A stretch of DNA of 33,893 nt from an uncultured Pelagibacteraceae bacterium (GTDB taxonomy: Bacteria > Pseudomonadota > Alphaproteobacteria > Pelagibacterales > Pelagibacteraceae), in NCBI GenBank assembly GCA_902566775.1, contig CACFKF010000009.1:1-33893 (forward strand). Reading direction: 5' to 3'. Below the pieces are notes generated by a model. It was given only the letters and a program-made list of their open reading frames with translations. It was not told the DNA's origin and did no database searches. A program made the translations under genes and the position numbers. Below are positions 2,806-18,225 of this stretch, piece after piece (position 1 is the first letter of the stretch; every line of letters begins with the position of its first letter).

Positions 2806-5145
2806 TTAAGCTCTAACTCTGGTTTTTTGTGGATCATAAAAAGGAAAAGCAACTACTTTTGCTGGAATTCTTTTTTGATGACCATCGATTTTGCCTACTT
2901 CTACTTCTGTGCCTATTTCAGTATAATTAATATCCATTCTGCATAGAGCTATATTTTTACCCAATGTTGGAGAGATCATTCCACTTGTAATTACTCCTAT
3001 TTGAGCTTTTCCTATATGCACGCAGTCTCCATGATTTGCTTGCTCTTTGCCAACTAACTCCAGTCCAACTAATTTTTTTTGAGGTGATGCTTTTCTTTTA
3101 ATTAAAGCTTCTTTACCAACAAAATCATCTTCTTTGGTTTTAAGAGCTACTGAGAAAGCAATTCCAGCTTCAAAAGGATCTGTTTGATCATCAAACTCAT
3201 ATCCATAAAAAATGAGACCAGCTTCAATTCTTACCATGTCCAAAGCTTCTAAGCCCATTGGAGCTATACCTAAATCTTTTCCATTTTCCCAAACTTTATC
3301 CCAAACTTCTGAAGCATCTTTAGGGTGGCACCACACCTCAAAACCTAACTCTCCAGTATATCCTGTTCTGGAAACAATAATTGGTGTTCCCATTTCATCA
3401 CCGATTCTACCAATAGAAAACCTAAACCATTGAAGTTCATTTATTGTTGGTTGCATGGGAGCACTCCAAAAGAATTTTTCTAAAATTTTTCTACTATTTG
3501 GTCCCTGAACCGAGATATTGTGAATTTGATCTGTAGAGGACTTTACCCATGCATTGTAATTCTTTTTTTTAGCTAGTTCTCTTAACCATGTTCCGCCATA
3601 CTCTTGTCCACCAATCCATCTAAAATTTTCTTTTCCAAGACGAAAGATTGTTCCATCATCTATCATGCAACCGTTTTCGTAGCACATTGCAGAATAACTT
3701 ACTTGACCTATTGAGAGTTTTTTTACGTTACGCGTCAAAGCATATTGCATTAAGCTTTCAGCATCTGGTCCATTTATTTCAAATTTTCGTAAAGGCGAAA
3801 GGTCAATCGCTATGGCTTTTTCTCTACATGAAGTGTATTCTTTGATTGTTCCATATTTTGTGTAATTGTTTGCTAACCAATAGCCGTTATAATCAATAAA
3901 ATTTCTTGTAAGCTTTGAAGTTTTTTTATGAAATCCAGTTTCTCTTGTCAATTTTGGTTCTGAATCTGTTTTCATTCTAAATGCTATAGCTTTCGAAAAT
4001 TCCTTTTTTTTATCATAAATTCTAACAAAGATATCAGTAGGATTCCACCCATTACAATTGTCGATATCACTAGGACATGCGGTAGTTCCACATGTTAAAT
4101 CTTTTAAAGCGCGCAATAGAACATAATCTCCTGGTCGAGCATAAGACTCATCTCCCATAATAGCGTTTTGCCCACCAAGAACAGTATTAAAAAAAAGATT
4201 TATAGCTGGCCATCCTTTTCTTTTTTCTACTCCATATTTTTCTAACTCCACATTTAAATTATCTGAGCAGTTGGGATGACCAAAATATCCTGCATCTTCA
4301 TAGTATTTTGATGTACATGCTAAATTAAAAGTGTCATGTCTTCCAACAGTATCTCTTATAACTTCAAGCATTGGCTCATGATCCATATCGAAGAACTTTG
4401 AAAATAATCCAGGGCCAGGATAAAGGGCTCCCATAAAAGTCCTTGTAGTTAGAGGATCAATACCTCTTTCAATTCCTTTTTCTAACTTCGCTGTATCAAA
4501 AGCTACCAAATCTGAACACTGTCTTCCATACGGGTTAATTATTTGAATATAATCTCCTTTTTTTATTTCATATGATGAAGCTGTTCTACGTTCAATAATA
4601 AATTCATTTAATGGATCTTTAAGTGGTTCAGGAATAATTTTTTGATCTTTAATTTTATCTGGATTTGCTCTTTTAACCATGATTGTTATATCCGTAGGAG
4701 GGTTTTGGTTTTCAATATTCATGGGACCACCTGGTGCTGCAAAAATACAAATACAGCTATCTTTCGATTTAATTTTTATTTTTTCTTCAGCTTTGCATTC
4801 AAGATCAAAAACCAAACTTGATTTAGCTTTGTTGATATCTAATTTCTTCTTTTTTAATTGATAAACTACGGCTTGAACACTCTCTTCTTTTCGAGAAAGG
4901 ATTTTTTTAATTTCGTTTGCACTACCATTTTCTTTTAAGTTTAATATTGAGGAGTCTGTTTTTCCTATATTATTGAAAACAGCAATTTCTAATAATTGTT
5001 TTCCTTCATTATTAATAATTTCTATTTGATCTTCGGGAAAAATTTCAAATAAAGATAAACCACCACCATTAACAATGTATCTTTCAACCCCAAGTGGTAA
5101 AGCTCTAAGACCGGGCTCTTTTATGTTTAAACTAGTTAGTTCCAT
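2806..5145 (-). CDS. tdm: Trimethylamine N-oxide demethylase (DUF1989-GcvT fusion)
   Basis: Converts TMAO to dimethylamine and formaldehyde; the C-terminal tetrahydrofolate (THF) domain is thought to capture the one-carbon unit. The 779 residues hold an N-terminal DUF1989-type (urea carboxylase-associated) region, clearest from about 180 to 375, and a GcvT-like aminomethyltransferase domain from about 420 to 779. Cysteines C210, C277, C293, C352 and C357 lie in conserved-looking contexts (CTSKYYEDAGYFGHPNCSD, CGTTACPSDIDNCNGWNPTD), consistent with the metal site known for Tdm. The GcvT part shows NGPDAESLMQYALTRNV, SRTGYTGELGFEVW and GLEALDMVRIEAG. This two-domain order separates it from DMSP demethylase DmdA and plain GcvT. 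Divergent tmoX and downstream tmm support the call. No Shine-Dalgarno is visible before its ATG. Which cysteines bind metal is inferred. Confidence 0.93.
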   Translation of the reverse strand: MELTSLNIKEPGLRALPLGVERYIVNGGGLSLFEIFPEDQIEIINNEGKQLLEIAVFNNIGKTDSSILNLKENGSANEIKKILSRKEESVQAVVYQLKKKKLDINKAKSSLVFDLECKAEEKIKIKSKDSCICIFAAPGGPMNIENQNPPTDITIMVKRANPDKIKDQKIIPEPLKDPLNEFIIERRTASSYEIKKGDYIQIINPYGRQCSDLVAFDTAKLEKGIERGIDPLTTRTFMGALYPGPGLFSKFFDMDHEPMLEVIRDTVGRHDTFNLACTSKYYEDAGYFGHPNCSDNLNVELEKYGVEKRKGWPAINLFFNTVLGGQNAIMGDESYARPGDYVLLRALKDLTCGTTACPSDIDNCNGWNPTDIFVRIYDKKKEFSKAIAFRMKTDSEPKLTRETGFHKKTSKLTRNFIDYNGYWLANNYTKYGTIKEYTSCREKAIAIDLSPLRKFEINGPDAESLMQYALTRNVKKLSIGQVSYSAMCYENGCMIDDGTIFRLGKENFRWIGGQEYGGTWLRELAKKKNYNAWVKSSTDQIHNISVQGPNSRKILEKFFWSAPMQPTINELQWFRFSIGRIGDEMGTPIIVSRTGYTGELGFEVWCHPKDASEVWDKVWENGKDLGIAPMGLEALDMVRIEAGLIFYGYEFDDQTDPFEAGIAFSVALKTKEDDFVGKEALIKRKASPQKKLVGLELVGKEQANHGDCVHIGKAQIGVITSGMISPTLGKNIALCRMDINYTEIGTEVEVGKIDGHQKRIPAKVVAFPFYDPQKTRVRA

Positions 5146-5301: not shown

Positions 5302-6246
5302 ATGAGAAAATTAATATCTTTATTATCTGCCGTAGTTATTTCTTTAGTAAGTTTTGTAGGAATAGCTAATTCAGCGGATAGTAAGAAACCTACTCGAATT
5401 CCAACACACAATTGGTCAAGCCAAGTTGTTATGGCTTATGTAATTGGTGGAATTATAGAAGACATGGGTGGAAATGTAGAATACGTACCAGCTGACTCTC
5501 AAGCTGTTTACGAGTCAATTCGTATTGGCGATGTAGATATATCACACGAAGTTTGGGAATCTGCTTTTGGTAAATCATTTACAACAGCTCTTGATGCTGG
5601 TGGTTTACTTGACTGGGGAGATCACGAAGCAAGAACTCTTGAGGACATGGGATATCCTAACTGGGTAACTGACAAAGGATTATGTCCAGGTCTTCCAGAT
5701 TGGACTGCTTTAAAAAATCCTGATTGTGCTAAAAACTTTGTAACACCTGACTCAGATGGAAAAGGAAGAATGTTAGAAGGTCCACAAACTTGGCACGGAG
5801 ACTTAATACCTCAAAGAATTGAAGCTTTAGGCTTGGCAGATCTTTGGTGGGTTAAATTTGCTGGAAGTGCAGATGCACTTTGGGCAGAATTAGCAGCAGC
5901 TAAGAAAGAAGGAAGAGGAACTATTATCTTTAACTGGACACCAAACTTTACAGATGGTGCTGGTTTTACATTTATAGACTTCCCTCCATACACTGCAGGT
6001 TGTCGACCAGAAGATGGTGGTGATGGAAAATGTGGTTCACCAGATGGTTATTTGAAAAAGGCTGTAAATGCAGACTGGACAAAAACTCATCCAGCAGCAG
6101 CTAAAATGTTCAAAAGACTTTCATTCTCTACAGGTCAAATTGGTGCAATGGCGGCTTTAGTTGACGTTGACAAAATGACTCACGAAGATGCAGGTAAGAA
6201 ATGGTTAGCTGATAACGAGTCCGTTTGGAAACCTTGGACTAAATAA
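5302..6246 (+). CDS. tmoX: TMAO-binding periplasmic protein of ABC transporter
   Basis: A 314-residue substrate-binding protein of the OpuAC/ProX glycine-betaine class. It has a classical signal peptide (basic MRK, hydrophobic to about residue 21, cleavage near 24-25). Tryptophans W38, W85, W164, W182/W183 and W212 are candidates for the aromatic cage that holds a trimethylammonium-type head group. C128, C142, C234 and C244 could form disulfides in the periplasm. Divergence from tdm and proximity to tmm favour TMAO over betaine or choline as ligand, although sequence alone cannot exclude them. Strong promoter, strong ribosome-binding site and a dedicated terminator suggest high expression separately from the membrane subunits, as is common for SAR11 binding proteins. 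Unusually, its ATPase and permease begin 1.6 kb downstream, after three unrelated small genes. Confidence 0.87.
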   Translation: MRKLISLLSAVVISLVSFVGIANSADSKKPTRIPTHNWSSQVVMAYVIGGIIEDMGGNVEYVPADSQAVYESIRIGDVDISHEVWESAFGKSFTTALDAGGLLDWGDHEARTLEDMGYPNWVTDKGLCPGLPDWTALKNPDCAKNFVTPDSDGKGRMLEGPQTWHGDLIPQRIEALGLADLWWVKFAGSADALWAELAAAKKEGRGTIIFNWTPNFTDGAGFTFIDFPPYTAGCRPEDGGDGKCGSPDGYLKKAVNADWTKTHPAAAKMFKRLSFSTGQIGAMAALVDVDKMTHEDAGKKWLADNESVWKPWTK

Positions 6247-6273
6247 GCACAAAAGCTAATAAATTGTAAATCT

Positions 6274-6304
6274 CCCCCAACAATGTTGGGGGGGATTTTT
6301 TTTT
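6274..6304 (+). terminator. Strong intrinsic terminator after tmoX
   Basis: CCCCCAAC (6274-6281), loop AAT, GTTGGGGG (6285-6292), then GGA and nine T (6296-6304). This is an eight-pair GC-rich stem with a T tract, 27 bases after the tmoX stop. It is the clearest terminator in the window and should uncouple tmoX from the genes downstream, or attenuate read-through to tmoVW. Confidence 0.92.
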
Positions 6305-6351: not shown

Positions 6352-6813
6352 ATGTTAAAGTGTTTTTTATATATATCTCTCAGCTTATTATTTTTCACCA
6401 TATCATTTGCTAAAAATGTAAATATACAAGAGGATATTGAACTTATTTTTGTATGCGAGTTAGAAAAGAAAATACTTAAGAATTCAGAATATAATTATAC
6501 AACTTTTCTAGCCAAAGATTTAGATGAAAAAGGGTTAGATAAATTTGAAATTTTTGCAAAACAACCAGAAACACTATTGATTAATGGACTATCATTGTTC
6601 TTTTCAAAAGCCGTAAAATTTGATGTCAAAGTTGTAAATAAAGACGTAATTTTATTTAAAGCTTTTAATAAAGAAAAGAATTACTCAGAGTCAGGCATAA
6701 TAACTAGAAAATCTGGTGAATTAGTTCATGAAATTACAAGAGGTTTAAAAAGTGATAACTTAGAAAAAAGTATTTTCTTTTATTCTTGTAGAAAAAAGGA
6801 GAAAAAAGTCTGA
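6352..6813 (+). CDS. Hypothetical secreted protein with two mature cysteines
   Basis: A 153-residue protein not assigned to a family. Residues 1-20 form a signal peptide (hydrophobic ISLSLLFFTISFA, cleavage after about A20). The mature part is mixed alpha/beta in composition, with one cysteine at each end (C35, C146) that could pair in the periplasm, and a very basic tail (RKKEKKV). No catalytic motif is evident. It starts 48 bases after the tmoX terminator and is followed 31 bases later by the MORN-repeat gene, in the same direction as tmoX and tmoVW. It is probably a real gene, given the signal peptide, the continuous frame and the orderly spacing. The function is unknown. Confidence 0.7.
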   Translation: MLKCFLYISLSLLFFTISFAKNVNIQEDIELIFVCELEKKILKNSEYNYTTFLAKDLDEKGLDKFEIFAKQPETLLINGLSLFFSKAVKFDVKVVNKDVILFKAFNKEKNYSESGIITRKSGELVHEITRGLKSDNLEKSIFFYSCRKKEKKV

Positions 6814-6844
6814 TTTTTTTTTATATAATTTAGTGTAAAATATA

Positions 6845-7222
6845 ATGATGAAAAAATATCTCATTTACATAATTTTAAGTTTTTTAATTACAAATTCAGT
6901 ATTAGCTCGAAAAACAGGTTGTGAGGGAAACTGTGTGGATGGTTTTGGTAAATGGACCTATACAGATAAAACAACTTATGAAGGAGAATGGGTTGGAACA
7001 AAAAAAAATGGTCAAGGAATTGAAATTTGGCCCAATGGATATGTTTATGAAGGTGAATTTAAAAATAGTGAGTGGAGTGGACAAGGAGTTTTAACTTTTC
7101 CAAATGGCGCAACTTATGAAGGAGAATGGGCTAATGGTTTCATGAATGGCAAAGGAACCTTTACTTGGTCTGACGGAAAAGAAAAAACAGGTACTTGGGT
7201 AAATGGAGAATTACAAGAGTAA
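6845..7222 (+). CDS. Secreted MORN-repeat protein
   Basis: A 125-residue protein with a signal peptide (MMKKYLIYIILSFLITNSVLA, cleavage near residue 22) and then about four MORN repeats with a 23-residue period: YEGEW, YEGEF, YEGEW and a degenerate KTGTW, each followed by G-x-G and a WPNG/FPNG/WSDG turn. MORN repeats form an extended beta-hairpin stack that usually mediates protein or membrane contacts. Two cysteines (C-E-G-N-C) just after the signal could form a small disulfide loop. There are two tandem ATGs; the first is used here. Four bases of an overlapping frame and the next gene's ATG at 7231 suggest tight coupling to the following membrane protein. Specific role unknown. Confidence 0.82.
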   Translation: MMKKYLIYIILSFLITNSVLARKTGCEGNCVDGFGKWTYTDKTTYEGEWVGTKKNGQGIEIWPNGYVYEGEFKNSEWSGQGVLTFPNGATYEGEWANGFMNGKGTFTWSDGKEKTGTWVNGELQE

Positions 7223-7230
7223 TTAAAATA

Positions 7231-7782
7231 ATGCTACAAGGTAAATATTTAAATAAATTAAAGGAGTTCCCCGAACCAGTTAGACAATTTGGTGGTCTTG
7301 TTACTATAACAGTTATTGTAATTTTATCTTTTGTTATTTTAAATATTTTTTGGGGTGGAGGCGATGAATTAGTTAGAAAAATGAAATTAGAAGAGGAAAG
7401 AATTGCAAAAGAAAAAGAACTAAGCAAACTGATTTCAAGCCTTCCATCAGGTATTCTAGTACCTTATGAAGGAACTGAAGGTCATAAATTGTCCGAAGAA
7501 CAACACGAGGCAGTTTGCAATGCAACAGAAATTGTATCTCAGCGTTCTGTTATGGGTGCTAATTTAACAAATTTTAAAGCAAAACACATATATACTATTA
7601 ATGGTAATGATATTAAAGAAACATTTGTTAACTGGGACAAAGAGAAAAATAAATGCTTTGCTGGTTTTACTGTAACTGGAAGCAATGTTGGAATAAATGA
7701 AACAATTACTGTTAGTGGAGAGGTTTTAAGTTTTTTTAATACCGGAATTGATACAAGAGTTTATTTTATTAAAAATTTTTAA
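7231..7782 (+). CDS. Single-pass membrane protein, unknown function
   Basis: 183 residues from ATG 7231. A TTG at 7195 would extend it by 12 residues but would overlap the MORN gene, so I prefer the ATG eight bases after that gene's stop. One membrane segment (about 22-41, LVTITVIVILSFVILNIF) is followed by a short charged helix likely to be coiled coil (about 45-65, RKMKLEEERIAKEKELSK) and a roughly 110-residue soluble C-terminal domain with two cysteines (EAVC, NKC). The polarity suggests a short cytoplasmic N-terminus and a periplasmic domain. With the two preceding secreted proteins it looks like a small envelope module. No family recognised. Confidence 0.7.
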   Translation: MLQGKYLNKLKEFPEPVRQFGGLVTITVIVILSFVILNIFWGGGDELVRKMKLEEERIAKEKELSKLISSLPSGILVPYEGTEGHKLSEEQHEAVCNATEIVSQRSVMGANLTNFKAKHIYTINGNDIKETFVNWDKEKNKCFAGFTVTGSNVGINETITVSGEVLSFFNTGIDTRVYFIKNF

Positions 7783-7847: not shown

Positions 7848-8876
7848 ATGACTGATGCGGTAATTAAGTGCGATTCTGTATATAAAATTTTTGGAGCAAA
7901 TGCCAAAAAGATGCTTCAAGAAGCAAATGGAAATGTGGATGCAAAAACATTCCAAGAAAATGGATGTATTGTAGGTGTGAACAATGCTTCTTTTGAAGTT
8001 GCAAAAGGAGAAATGTTGGTTGTTATGGGTTTATCAGGCTCAGGCAAATCTACATTATTAAGATGTATTTCTAGATTAACAGATGCAACTGATGGAAAAA
8101 TTTATATAGAAGGCCAAGATTTACTCTCATTAAAAAACAAAGAACTAATTGAACTTAGAAGAAATAAAATGGGAATGGTTTTTCAAAGTTTTGCTTTACT
8201 TCCACATAAAACAGTTTTGGAAAATATAGCTTTCCCACTTCAAATTAAAGGAATTAAAACTCAAGATAGTATCAATAAAGCTATGGACATGGTTAAACTC
8301 GTTGGTCTTGATGGAAGAGAAAATTATTTTCCAAGAGAACTTTCAGGTGGACAACAACAAAGAGTAGGTATTGCTCGATCGTTGGCTGTTGAACCTGATA
8401 TTTGGTTTTTAGACGAACCTTTTTCTGCACTAGATCCATTGATTAGAAAAGAAATGCAAGACGAATTTTTAAGACTTCAGGAAAAATTAAAAAAAACAAT
8501 TATGTTTATTACTCATGATTTTGATGAAGCGTTAAAACTTGCTGATCGTATAGCAATTATGAAGGATGGAATAATTGAACAGTTAGATACTCCAGCAAAA
8601 ATAGTATTAAATCCAGCAACTGAGTATGTAAAAAAATTTACTGAGGAAGTTCCAAGAGAAAAAGTTTTAATAATAGAAGATGTAATGGAAAAATTAAATA
8701 ATGACAATATGAGTGATTTAAAAGTTTCAAAGAACGAGATAATTGAAAATGTAGCTGAAAAGATTTTATCTCAAGAAAAATCTGTAGCTGTAACTGACGA
8801 AAATAATAAAATTGTTGGAACTGTCCATCCTTCAAAAATAATCCATACTGTTTTTGGGGGGAGAAAAAATAACTAA
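7848..8876 (+). CDS. tmoV: TMAO ABC transporter ATP-binding subunit
   Basis: A 342-residue ATPase of the ProV/OpuAA (quaternary amine uptake) subfamily that powers import through TmoW. It has Walker A GLSGSGKST (61-69), the signature LSGGQQQ (165-171), Walker B IWFLDEP (185-191), Q-loop VFQSF (111-115) and switch-region THD. About 75 residues remain at the C-terminus (ENVAEKILSQEKSVAVTDENNKIVG and on), resembling one CBS-like repeat, the part that senses ionic strength or nucleotide in related osmolyte transporters. The N-terminus has the ProV-like insert before Walker A. It is six bases upstream of tmoW. Substrate specificity comes from context with tmoX and tdm; betaine or choline cannot be excluded. 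Confidence 0.88.
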   Translation: MTDAVIKCDSVYKIFGANAKKMLQEANGNVDAKTFQENGCIVGVNNASFEVAKGEMLVVMGLSGSGKSTLLRCISRLTDATDGKIYIEGQDLLSLKNKELIELRRNKMGMVFQSFALLPHKTVLENIAFPLQIKGIKTQDSINKAMDMVKLVGLDGRENYFPRELSGGQQQRVGIARSLAVEPDIWFLDEPFSALDPLIRKEMQDEFLRLQEKLKKTIMFITHDFDEALKLADRIAIMKDGIIEQLDTPAKIVLNPATEYVKKFTEEVPREKVLIIEDVMEKLNNDNMSDLKVSKNEIIENVAEKILSQEKSVAVTDENNKIVGTVHPSKIIHTVFGGRKNN

Positions 8877-8882
8877 TAAAAC

Positions 8883-11036
8883 ATGGAATTATTAAAAAAA
8901 TATCCAAAATTATTCCAATGGTTATTTTTGCTAGTTGTATTTTTTACTTTATGCTTTGCAATTGATGTTCCCGAAACTTACAAATTTATAAGGGGTCAAG
9001 CTGAATTCATTAAAGACCCAAATCAAAGTACTTACACACTATTTGGCAAAGAAGTAAGGTATTATGCATTTGATGTTCTTTGGAGACTACCTCCTTTACT
9101 AGGATGGTTACCTATTTGGGTAAATGACTCTTTATTTTTCTTATTGAATGAATGGATGCCAATGGAGTTTTGGAATGAGGATCTCCAAGAATACAAAACT
9201 CGACCTTTAGTACTACAAATAACAAGAAACATAACTGCATCTATGACATTTCTTATTGAATTAATTAGAGAAATTTTATTAGGTGGTGTTAAAACAGTTG
9301 TCGCATTTAGCAGTTGGGACTTTATAGATAAATATCCATGGGCAGAATTGCCAGGTTTACCTTGGACAATCGTTGCAGCGGGTGCAGTAATATTATGTTA
9401 CAAACTGAGTGGTAAAGGTCTGGCCATATTCGCTGGTTTAATCATGATTTATATTTCTGTATTTGGTCAATGGAAACCTGCGATGCAAACACTTTCTTTT
9501 ATATTGGTAGCAGCACCACTTTCTTTCATTTTTGGTTTGAGCTTAGGCATTATGGCTTTTAAGAGCAAACGTGTTGAGCAAGCTTTATATCCTATACTCC
9601 TAGTGATGCAGACCATGCCACAATATGCGGTTTTAGTTCCTGCAATGGTTCTTTTTGGAATTGGAGATCATGCTGCAGTTATTATAACAATGGTTGTTGC
9701 TATTCCACCAATGATCTTATTAACTTTATTGGGTCTTAGAGCGGTACCCCCCGAAGTTATAGAAGCTGGCAAAATGAGCGGATGTAATAATTTTCAACTT
9801 ATGACCAAAGTATTAATTCCAACTGCAAGAAGAGACATTTTAATTGGAGTAAACCAGGTCATTATGGTTTGTTTTTCTATGGCGGTTATTTCAGCTTTTA
9901 TAGGTGCTAAAGGATTAGGGTGGAATTTATTGCTAGCCTTAAATCAACTGAATATTGGATTAGCATTAGAAGCCGGCTTATGTATTAGTATGATTGCAAT
10001 ACTGTTAGATAAAATGTCTTTGGCTTGGGCAAATAAACAAGAAGATTATTTTGGCAACCTAACGTTTTTTCAACGTTACAAAAATACATTATTTTTTGCT
10101 GGAGCAGTATTGATAGGAGTGATATTTGCCTACGCTGGATCTTTTTTCTTTAAAGACAGTTTTAATTACTTATATGAGATACCACATAATAAAGGAATAT
10201 CATTTGCAGATTTCTGGAATAAAGGTGTTGATTGGATTTGGGATACTTTTTTTCAAACTTTAAAAATATTTAATACTTGGTTAATTACAGAAGTTCTTCA
10301 ACCAATGAGAGCCATGTATCTAAGAATGCCAGCAGTTGCTACTTTAGTATTAGTTGTTGGAGCAGGTTATATAATTGGTGGAATTCGTTCAGCTTTTACT
10401 GTGGGTGGATTAGCATTATTTATAGCACTAAGTCCATGGTGGGATAGAGCTTTGGTTACAACGTACATGGCAACCTTTGGAGTTATTGCATCTTGCACAA
10501 TTGGATTAATAGTTGGAACTTTATGTCAACAAAACAAATATACCACAAAATTTATGTTGGCAGTTTGTGATATTTTTCAAACATTTCCTTCTTTTGTATA
10601 TTTAATTCCAGTAATGATGCTTTTTGGTATAACGGATACATCAGTATTAATTGCAGTAATTGTTTACGCAACTATACCTGCTACAAGGTACACTATTGAG
10701 GGGTTAAGAAGTGTTCCAGCTGGTTTGCATGACGCAGCCACAATGTCAGGTGTAACGAAATTCCAAAGATTAATAAATATAGAATTTCCAATAGCGTTTC
10801 CTCATATGATGCTTGGTGTAAATCAAACAATCGTATTTGCTTTGTTTATGGTAATTATAGGAGCATTTATTGGAACAGAAGATTTAGGACAATATATTCT
10901 AAAAGCTTTATCTGATAAAAAAGGTGGGGGTAAAGGATTAATACTTGGTATTTGTGTCGCTTTCATAGCTCTGATATTTGACAATTTAATTAGAACCTGG
11001 GTAGAAAAAAGAAAAAAGCATCTTGGTATAAATTAA
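8883..11036 (+). CDS. tmoW: TMAO ABC transporter permease, two fused permease domains
   Basis: A 717-residue inner-membrane protein with many hydrophobic segments and two copies of the BPD_transp_1 permease domain. Each copy carries its own EAA-type ATPase-contact loop: GLRAVPPEVIEAGKMSG (about 283) and GLRSVPAGLHDAATMSG (about 606), each followed by a similar G(V)NQ...IGAFIG segment. A single chain therefore supplies both halves of the pore, where ProW/OpuAB use two identical subunits. It follows tmoV by six bases and is followed four bases later by glpK. The duplication is visible in the sequence; the TMAO substrate is inferred from the locus. Confidence 0.88.
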   Translation: MELLKKYPKLFQWLFLLVVFFTLCFAIDVPETYKFIRGQAEFIKDPNQSTYTLFGKEVRYYAFDVLWRLPPLLGWLPIWVNDSLFFLLNEWMPMEFWNEDLQEYKTRPLVLQITRNITASMTFLIELIREILLGGVKTVVAFSSWDFIDKYPWAELPGLPWTIVAAGAVILCYKLSGKGLAIFAGLIMIYISVFGQWKPAMQTLSFILVAAPLSFIFGLSLGIMAFKSKRVEQALYPILLVMQTMPQYAVLVPAMVLFGIGDHAAVIITMVVAIPPMILLTLLGLRAVPPEVIEAGKMSGCNNFQLMTKVLIPTARRDILIGVNQVIMVCFSMAVISAFIGAKGLGWNLLLALNQLNIGLALEAGLCISMIAILLDKMSLAWANKQEDYFGNLTFFQRYKNTLFFAGAVLIGVIFAYAGSFFFKDSFNYLYEIPHNKGISFADFWNKGVDWIWDTFFQTLKIFNTWLITEVLQPMRAMYLRMPAVATLVLVVGAGYIIGGIRSAFTVGGLALFIALSPWWDRALVTTYMATFGVIASCTIGLIVGTLCQQNKYTTKFMLAVCDIFQTFPSFVYLIPVMMLFGITDTSVLIAVIVYATIPATRYTIEGLRSVPAGLHDAATMSGVTKFQRLINIEFPIAFPHMMLGVNQTIVFALFMVIIGAFIGTEDLGQYILKALSDKKGGGKGLILGICVAFIALIFDNLIRTWVEKRKKHLGIN

Positions 11037-18212: not shown

Positions 18213-18225
18213 AAACAATTAAGTT

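Follow-up and report, generated by a model that had tools for sequence, protein, structure and literature searches.

Gene organization of the tmo locus

The window, i.e. the whole stretch of 33,893 nucleotides that was analysed, carries a locus for a TMAO importer with the following genes and features.

2806..5145, minus strand: Tdm-like TMAO demethylase with DUF1989 and GCV_T domains (Pfam), divergent neighbour of tmoX
5302..6246, plus strand: tmoX, periplasmic TMAO-binding protein with an OpuAC domain, best PDB relative 4xz6
6268..6304, plus strand: intrinsic terminator 3' of tmoX, 14-pair stem and T-run (hairpin search, folding z)
6352..6813, plus strand: ORF1, optional exported protein of 153 aa, two invariant Cys, beta-barrel predicted with low confidence
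6814..6841, plus strand: predicted promoter of the MORN gene, consisting of T9 (6814-6822), 10 nt and GTGTAAAAT (6833-6841)
6845..7222, plus strand: exported MORN-repeat protein of 125 aa (PF02493), invariant Cys pair
7231..7782, plus strand: Mem, single-pass inner-membrane protein of 183 aa counted from the ATG, periplasmic alpha+beta domain, two invariant Cys
7848..8876, plus strand: ABC ATPase subunit of the TMAO importer (ABC_tran, Pfam)
8883..11036, plus strand: permease of the TMAO importer, 717 aa, two BPD_transp_1 stretches (Pfam)

Analyses of the deduced proteins indicated that a TmoX-like binding protein is encoded upstream of an ABC ATPase and a BPD_transp_1 permease. TmoX matched OpuAC in Pfam (E 2e-35) and 4xz6, which we take to be the TmoX of R. 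pomeroyi, in a PDB sequence search (E 1.9e-80). The name Tdm for the neighbour with DUF1989 and GCV_T is assumed by us from the pathway; since this Tdm-like gene lies divergently upstream of tmoX, the region looks like the TMAO locus. The tmoX and ATPase genes are separated by 1601 nt, and the ORFs and their coordinates bear out the initial annotation, according to which three genes lie between tmoX and the ATPase and permease genes, all on one strand, with the MORN and membrane genes closely coupled (a gap of 8 nt). Export or membrane signals had been ascribed to all three products; as far as hydropathy goes, this agrees with the hydrophobic N-termini of ORF1 and MORN and with one transmembrane stretch in Mem.

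The MORN protein matched PF02493 with E 3.5e-24 and 83.6 bits against a cut-off of 22.5. Four repeats had been described, of which Pfam recovered three stretches while the fourth, a partial one, was recognized by eye alone. Translation likely starts at the second ATG (6848), as judged from the sequence, and the Cys pair was invariant in 16/16 alignment rows. The MORN protein of a locus from another SAR11 family (L048, genome G045) is longer, 149 aa, apparently carrying one extra repeat.

Mem was described as a single-pass protein with a coiled coil; hydropathy revealed one transmembrane stretch at residues 22-40, and the coiled coil corresponds to a predicted helix at residues 44-69. Its two Cys were invariant in 73/73 rows. 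Mem gave no credible match in Pfam, where Gb3_synth and Alpha-amylase were rejected as they scored below the cut-off, and no PDB sequence match below E 1.3. In the predicted structure (pLDDT 72, moderate) the transmembrane helix is followed by another long helix and by a domain built of helices plus four long strands. Foldseek gave no match to this fold at E<=0.001; the best structural match, latexin (Z 4.0, rmsd 4.0, 81 aligned), was weak and stood among mixed folds, and OrfG, taken for the VirB8/NTF2-like domain (Z 3.2, rmsd 3.7, 71 aligned), was tied with cystatin-like rows.

Distribution of the MORN-Mem pair and of ORF1

Gene order was analysed in 81 SAR11 loci, namely the best 80 of the 526 stretches retrieved by a Mem search plus locus L203 from a class-wide genome sample, a selection that favours relatives of the window. 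Within this set the MORN gene was directly upstream and the ATPase gene directly downstream of Mem in 81/81 loci, and the permease gene came next in 78, the other three being contig ends. A same-strand tmoX was found upstream in 70 of the 81 (ten contig ends, one inverted locus), and its divergent Tdm-like neighbour was present in 69 of these 70, the remaining locus being too short. The inverted locus, L156, carries tmoX on the opposite strand and a truncated ORF1, and may be a rearrangement or possibly a chimera of a single-cell assembly; it was counted as a miss. In these best 80 stretches plus L203 the region downstream of the permease gene was variable, glpK lying within 60 nt in 18 loci and not in 55, while the inner order was constant. 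That order was also kept in a second set of 61 relatives where contigs suffice, including another family (G045). Two closed SAR11 genomes, one of which looks like HTCC1062, carry the tmoX, ORF1, MORN, Mem, ATPase and permease genes in that order. The other resembles HTCC7211, the end of its tmoX fitting PB7211_687 of PMC5069720, whose annotated start makes it 27 nt longer.

The 81 loci, having been collected by their Mem gene, say nothing about where Mem is missing, and the converse searches started from the permease. A permease of >=70% identity was present in 21 of the 61 relatives and Mem in 18 of these 21; the three relatives with permease and no Mem (G002, G015, G019) break at contig ends. 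In a genus set of 218 genomes, all at least 85% complete except the window's own, the permease (E <= 1e-150) was present in 159, Mem in 151, both in 150 and neither in 58, some of the latter being incomplete. In the nine genomes with the permease only, the contig runs out at most 1131 nt upstream of the permease gene, too short for Mem, and in the single genome with Mem only the contig ends inside Mem. Adjacency was checked in the 81 loci and the 61 relatives, which probably overlap in part, and the figures for the 218 genomes refer to presence only. The MORN search matched 22 of the 61 genomes, some of them solely through repeats in longer unrelated frames. One contig (G517:C13) bears permease fragments of equal length and score in opposite orientation at both ends, probably an assembly artefact.

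MORN and Mem are thus a pair, seen wherever the importer genes are readable far enough in SAR11, and the two were not found scattered over unrelated loci as independent genes would be. The proposal of a transporter accessory gains support for MORN and Mem from their adjacency in every locus of the best-80-plus-L203 set and from their joint presence or absence in the genus, where all ten exceptions lie at contig ends; it did not hold for ORF1.

Outside SAR11 the situation is different. Among 385 alphaproteobacterial genomes Mem was found in SAR11 alone, apart from two marginal matches (L204 and L205, E 0.005 and 0.008) that were rejected as being about what chance would yield in 385 genomes. 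In 14 of 19 non-SAR11 loci, each covering about 1500 nt on either side of tmoX, the ATPase gene followed tmoX directly in the same orientation, at a distance of up to about 565 nt, and in the other five it was divergent or not found in that span; neither MORN nor Mem was found within this span in any of the 19. A second, more distant X-V-W importer occurs in the relatives G013 and G018 (L081 and L080), with 44-48% identity for the tmoX-like and 57-58% for the ATPase-like gene product; there the ATPase gene adjoins the tmoX-like gene, and MORN and Mem were not found. The pair is therefore not needed for such transport generally. The initial annotation had spoken of an interruption of a normally contiguous operon, which is correct in comparison with other Alphaproteobacteria, but in SAR11 itself the interruption is normal. 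The separation of the tmoX and ATPase genes in the window, unlike most other alphaproteobacterial loci sampled, is a property of gene order and not of the proteins.

Importers that do without the pair also fit another explanation, in which MORN and Mem serve an envelope job unrelated to TMAO, e.g. wall or outer-membrane scaffolding, and are fixed since tmoV-tmoW use their promoter. Genes of one operon are gained and lost together regardless of function, so adjacency would explain the joint loss as well. On the contrary, Mem was not found in the 58 genus genomes without permease, which is unexpected for a general envelope function even though some are incomplete, and the genes after the permease have been exchanged while the inner order has not. 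We consider an envelope role somewhat unlikely.

The distribution of ORF1 does not follow that of the pair. In the best-80-plus-L203 set it was present between tmoX and MORN in 42 of 70 loci and absent in 28, and on the permease tree its pattern requires at least five gains or losses, two of them forced by branches with strong support. The 61 relatives contain 12 clear homologues, six at the tmo locus and six elsewhere; two marginal matches (L031 and L032, E 6e-4 and 9e-4) were left out of the clear count. The copies elsewhere adjoin esterase-like and TPR, ribokinase-like, FAD oxidoreductase-like or pilin-like genes (names by eye), as had been envisaged for genes independent of the transporter. 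These homologues at unrelated loci (L025-L030) make up a small exported SAR11 family. In agreement with the original description of a two-Cys protein, both Cys were invariant in 39/39 alignment rows. ORF1 gave no credible Pfam family and no significant PDB sequence relative. Its model (pLDDT 66), folded from an alignment without L174, for which no clean start was found, shows a beta-barrel at low confidence; a calycin-like barrel was considered, and the matches, with Z 8.9 (rmsd 3.1, 107 aligned) and below, went to many different barrels, and structure comparisons of this predicted model yielded no clear family.

Since ORF1 is optional and is found at other loci, the trio as a unit was rejected. 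Right in several of its parts, the initial annotation was wrong in the unit, which had been described as a three-gene module and possibly an unrecognized periplasmic assembly. An assembly of ORF1, MORN and Mem would suit the hydrophobic N-terminal or transmembrane segment and the invariant Cys pair of each protein, and their common order in the 42 loci; the 28 loci that lack ORF1, its repeated gain or loss on the permease tree and the six homologues beside unrelated genes make it scarcely probable. We infer that ORF1 stands outside the importer machine.

Terminator, promoter-like box and transcripts

The hairpin at 6268-6304 has 14 pairs followed by a T-run, and its region folds at z = -4.8. 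It had been called the strongest terminator of the window, and none of the other terminator-like sites listed there has as many G-C pairs; the hairpin at 18223, with 15 pairs, falls behind it in the number of G-C pairs and in the quality of the T-tail. A hairpin with a T-tail after tmoX was found in 69/69 loci examined from the best 80 of 526 stretches plus L203.

Upstream of MORN, the -10-like box GTGTAAA[ACG]T was found in 74 of 76 loci of the same set. An in-frame ATG lies exactly 6 nt 3' of the box in 74/74, and a run of at least seven T ends 9-11 nt upstream of the box in 71/74. The box was absent in L164 and L174, G012 has diverged sequence there, and in the more diverged SAR11 genomes G009, G026 and G045 the 18 nt inspected ahead of the MORN start do not contain the exact box. 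Transcription usually starts 6 nt after a -10 box. The MORN ATG is therefore the expected 5' end of the mRNA, and MORN, Mem, tmoV and tmoW are predicted to share a separate transcript without a leader. A conserved promoter-like box directly before MORN is also what would be expected if the pair had been kept for an envelope job with tmoV-tmoW behind it.

Where ORF1 is missing from the loci inspected, this T-run forms the tail of the terminator behind tmoX and is located where the -35 region would be, so that the terminator T-run and the promoter-like box merge into one composite element. With ORF1 between, the T-run is mostly still present while the hairpin is gone, which suggests that the T-run serves the promoter. 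Most of the inspected loci bearing ORF1 have a T-run both before and after the gene, and such paired runs would allow ORF1 to be gained or lost by recombination.

In searches for the box elsewhere, the pattern TGTGTAAAATN{5,8}ATG found nothing, because the window has AGTG, and its N{4,9} version likewise found nothing. With GTGTAAAATN{4,8}ATG, 21 genomes yielded 46 matches, compared with 10 for the reversed control; only eight of the 30 matches examined as loci start an ORF of at least 60 codons, and two of these eight are MORN itself. A genome-wide SAR11 promoter class was therefore rejected.

The arrangement raises the possibility that the interval mainly sets stoichiometry, the terminator and a second promoter giving an excess of TmoX and the genes between being passengers. 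A stem-loop with a T-run after the binding-protein gene, as in internal ABC-operon terminators, occurs in all 69 loci, and in Clostridia the stoichiometry of ABC systems is reported to be set by such terminators behind the gene of the binding protein (PMC9045158). The TmoX (opuAC) of HTCC7211 appears in the Red Sea table of top TSS/RNA-Seq genes, and no other gene of the interval appears in that table (PMC5069720). Stoichiometry leaves unexplained, however, the two genes that are present in 81/81 loci of the best-80-plus-L203 set and under purifying selection in the pairs tested, and we regard it as quite improbable as the main function.

Selection, co-evolution and the possible role of the pair

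Values of dN/dS were determined in hand-picked close pairs (10, 15 and 16 of 16 pairs for ORF1, MORN and Mem), and single ratios are rough because some pairs have very low dS. The maxima were 0.46 for ORF1 (10 pairs), 0.32 for MORN (15), 0.50 for Mem (16) and 0.11 for the ATPase (16). ORF1, MORN and Mem are thus under purifying selection in the pairs tested, and the neutral evolution considered at the outset, with dN/dS near 1, was observed for none of the three. Mean protein distances were 0.23 for Mem, 0.17 for MORN, 0.10 for the permease, 0.09 for the ATPase and 0.08 for TmoX; the MORN-Mem pair evolves faster than the transporter, yet is constrained.

Partial correlations of distance matrices were calculated for the window and 66 loci of the best-80-plus-L203 set in which all five genes were long enough. 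Known contacts were recovered (ATPase-permease 0.64, TmoX-permease 0.35; TmoX-ATPase -0.16), and the values for the pair were 0.42 for MORN-Mem, 0.40 for Mem-permease and 0.03 for Mem-ATPase, the last although the ATPase gene lies between the Mem and permease genes. Bootstrap intervals excluded zero for MORN-Mem and Mem-permease, and barely also for TmoX-Mem (0.20) and TmoX-MORN (0.18). With equal numbers of variable sites, Mem-permease was 0.30 and Mem-ATPase 0.14. The test is weak, because Mem-permease was the larger in only 86% of draws and because MORN-ATPase, an impossible contact across the membrane, also scored 0.17, or 0.21 with equal sites and an interval above zero. The correlations fit a chain MORN - Mem - permease, which is a hint only, as noise and shared history are of similar size. 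Locus L136 shares 94% identity with the window in MORN and 72% in Mem, and its flanking genes are close to those of the window; recombination inside the operon is likely there, and a window-like MORN beside a diverged Mem means that the pair can be reshuffled.

The most likely among the readings weighed, with close to an even chance of being right, is that MORN and Mem are SAR11-specific accessory subunits of the TMAO importer. It is favoured by the adjacency of the pair, its co-presence across genomes, the fixed inner order, purifying selection and the Mem-permease correlation; related importers without the pair, the weak distance test, the reshuffling at L136 and the moderate quality of the Mem model speak against it. 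As to mechanism, Mem would sit in the inner membrane next to the permease and hold the exported MORN protein with its periplasmic domain, and the two together would dock TmoX, or retain it, close to the permeases, which are few for a large periplasm. TmoX would be made in excess from its own promoter, and MORN, Mem, ATPase and permease would be made together from the second, leaderless transcript. Docking of TmoX is in our view the most likely mechanism, and it would be useful under the model of PMC8168909, where uptake by cells with a large periplasm is limited by how slowly binding proteins diffuse. The complete proposal, a five-part SAR11 importer in which Mem on the permease and MORN tether abundant TmoX to the translocator and so ease the diffusion limit of an oligotroph, is unlikely as a whole and is put forward tentatively. 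That Mem is instead a membrane sensor of the state of TmoX or the permease, signalling inward, would suit its single membrane pass and large C-terminal domain, yet the part before the transmembrane stretch is only some 20 residues long and has no output domain, which makes this very improbable.

SAR11 bacteria are among the most abundant in surface seawater. TmoX is reported among the most expressed SAR11 genes in Table 2 of PMC5069720. As the pair accompanies the importer in every locus that is readable far enough, further parts may have to be added to the three that are usually named. If it has two unrecognized subunits, kinetics from TmoX alone miss part of the system, and the diffusion limit modelled in PMC8168909 could be tested with two genes. 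Even if the accessory reading fails and the two genes are passengers, they remain fixed as a pair, so far seen in SAR11 only.

Compared with known systems, the tmo interval shares with the internal terminators of PMC9045158 a stem-loop directly after the binding-protein gene and differs by the promoter-like box that follows in SAR11. The MORN protein has its repeats in common with other MORN-repeat proteins (PF02493), and its best PDB sequence matches are MORN1 proteins; unlike these it is a short protein that begins with a hydrophobic segment, has an invariant Cys pair and is tied to one importer, while longer MORN-repeat frames occur elsewhere in some SAR11 relatives. Mem resembles VirB8/NTF2-like and cystatin-like periplasmic domains in its short N-terminus, one transmembrane helix and helices followed by a four-stranded sheet, but the matches are weak only. 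TmoXWV of HTCC1062 is reported as a functional TMAO importer (PMC8918994), and the HTCC1062 fragment tested in R. pomeroyi probably carried the extra genes. The words "MORN" and "hypothetical" have no occurrence in the main text of that paper, and the titles, abstracts and passages surveyed in the open-licence PMC literature name neither a MORN gene nor a membrane gene as part of the tmo operon of SAR11. The locus of the window and TmoXVW of Ruegeria pomeroyi and HTCC1062 are alike in the families of binding protein, ATPase and permease and in the divergent Tdm-like neighbour; SAR11 differs by the two further genes that separate X from V.
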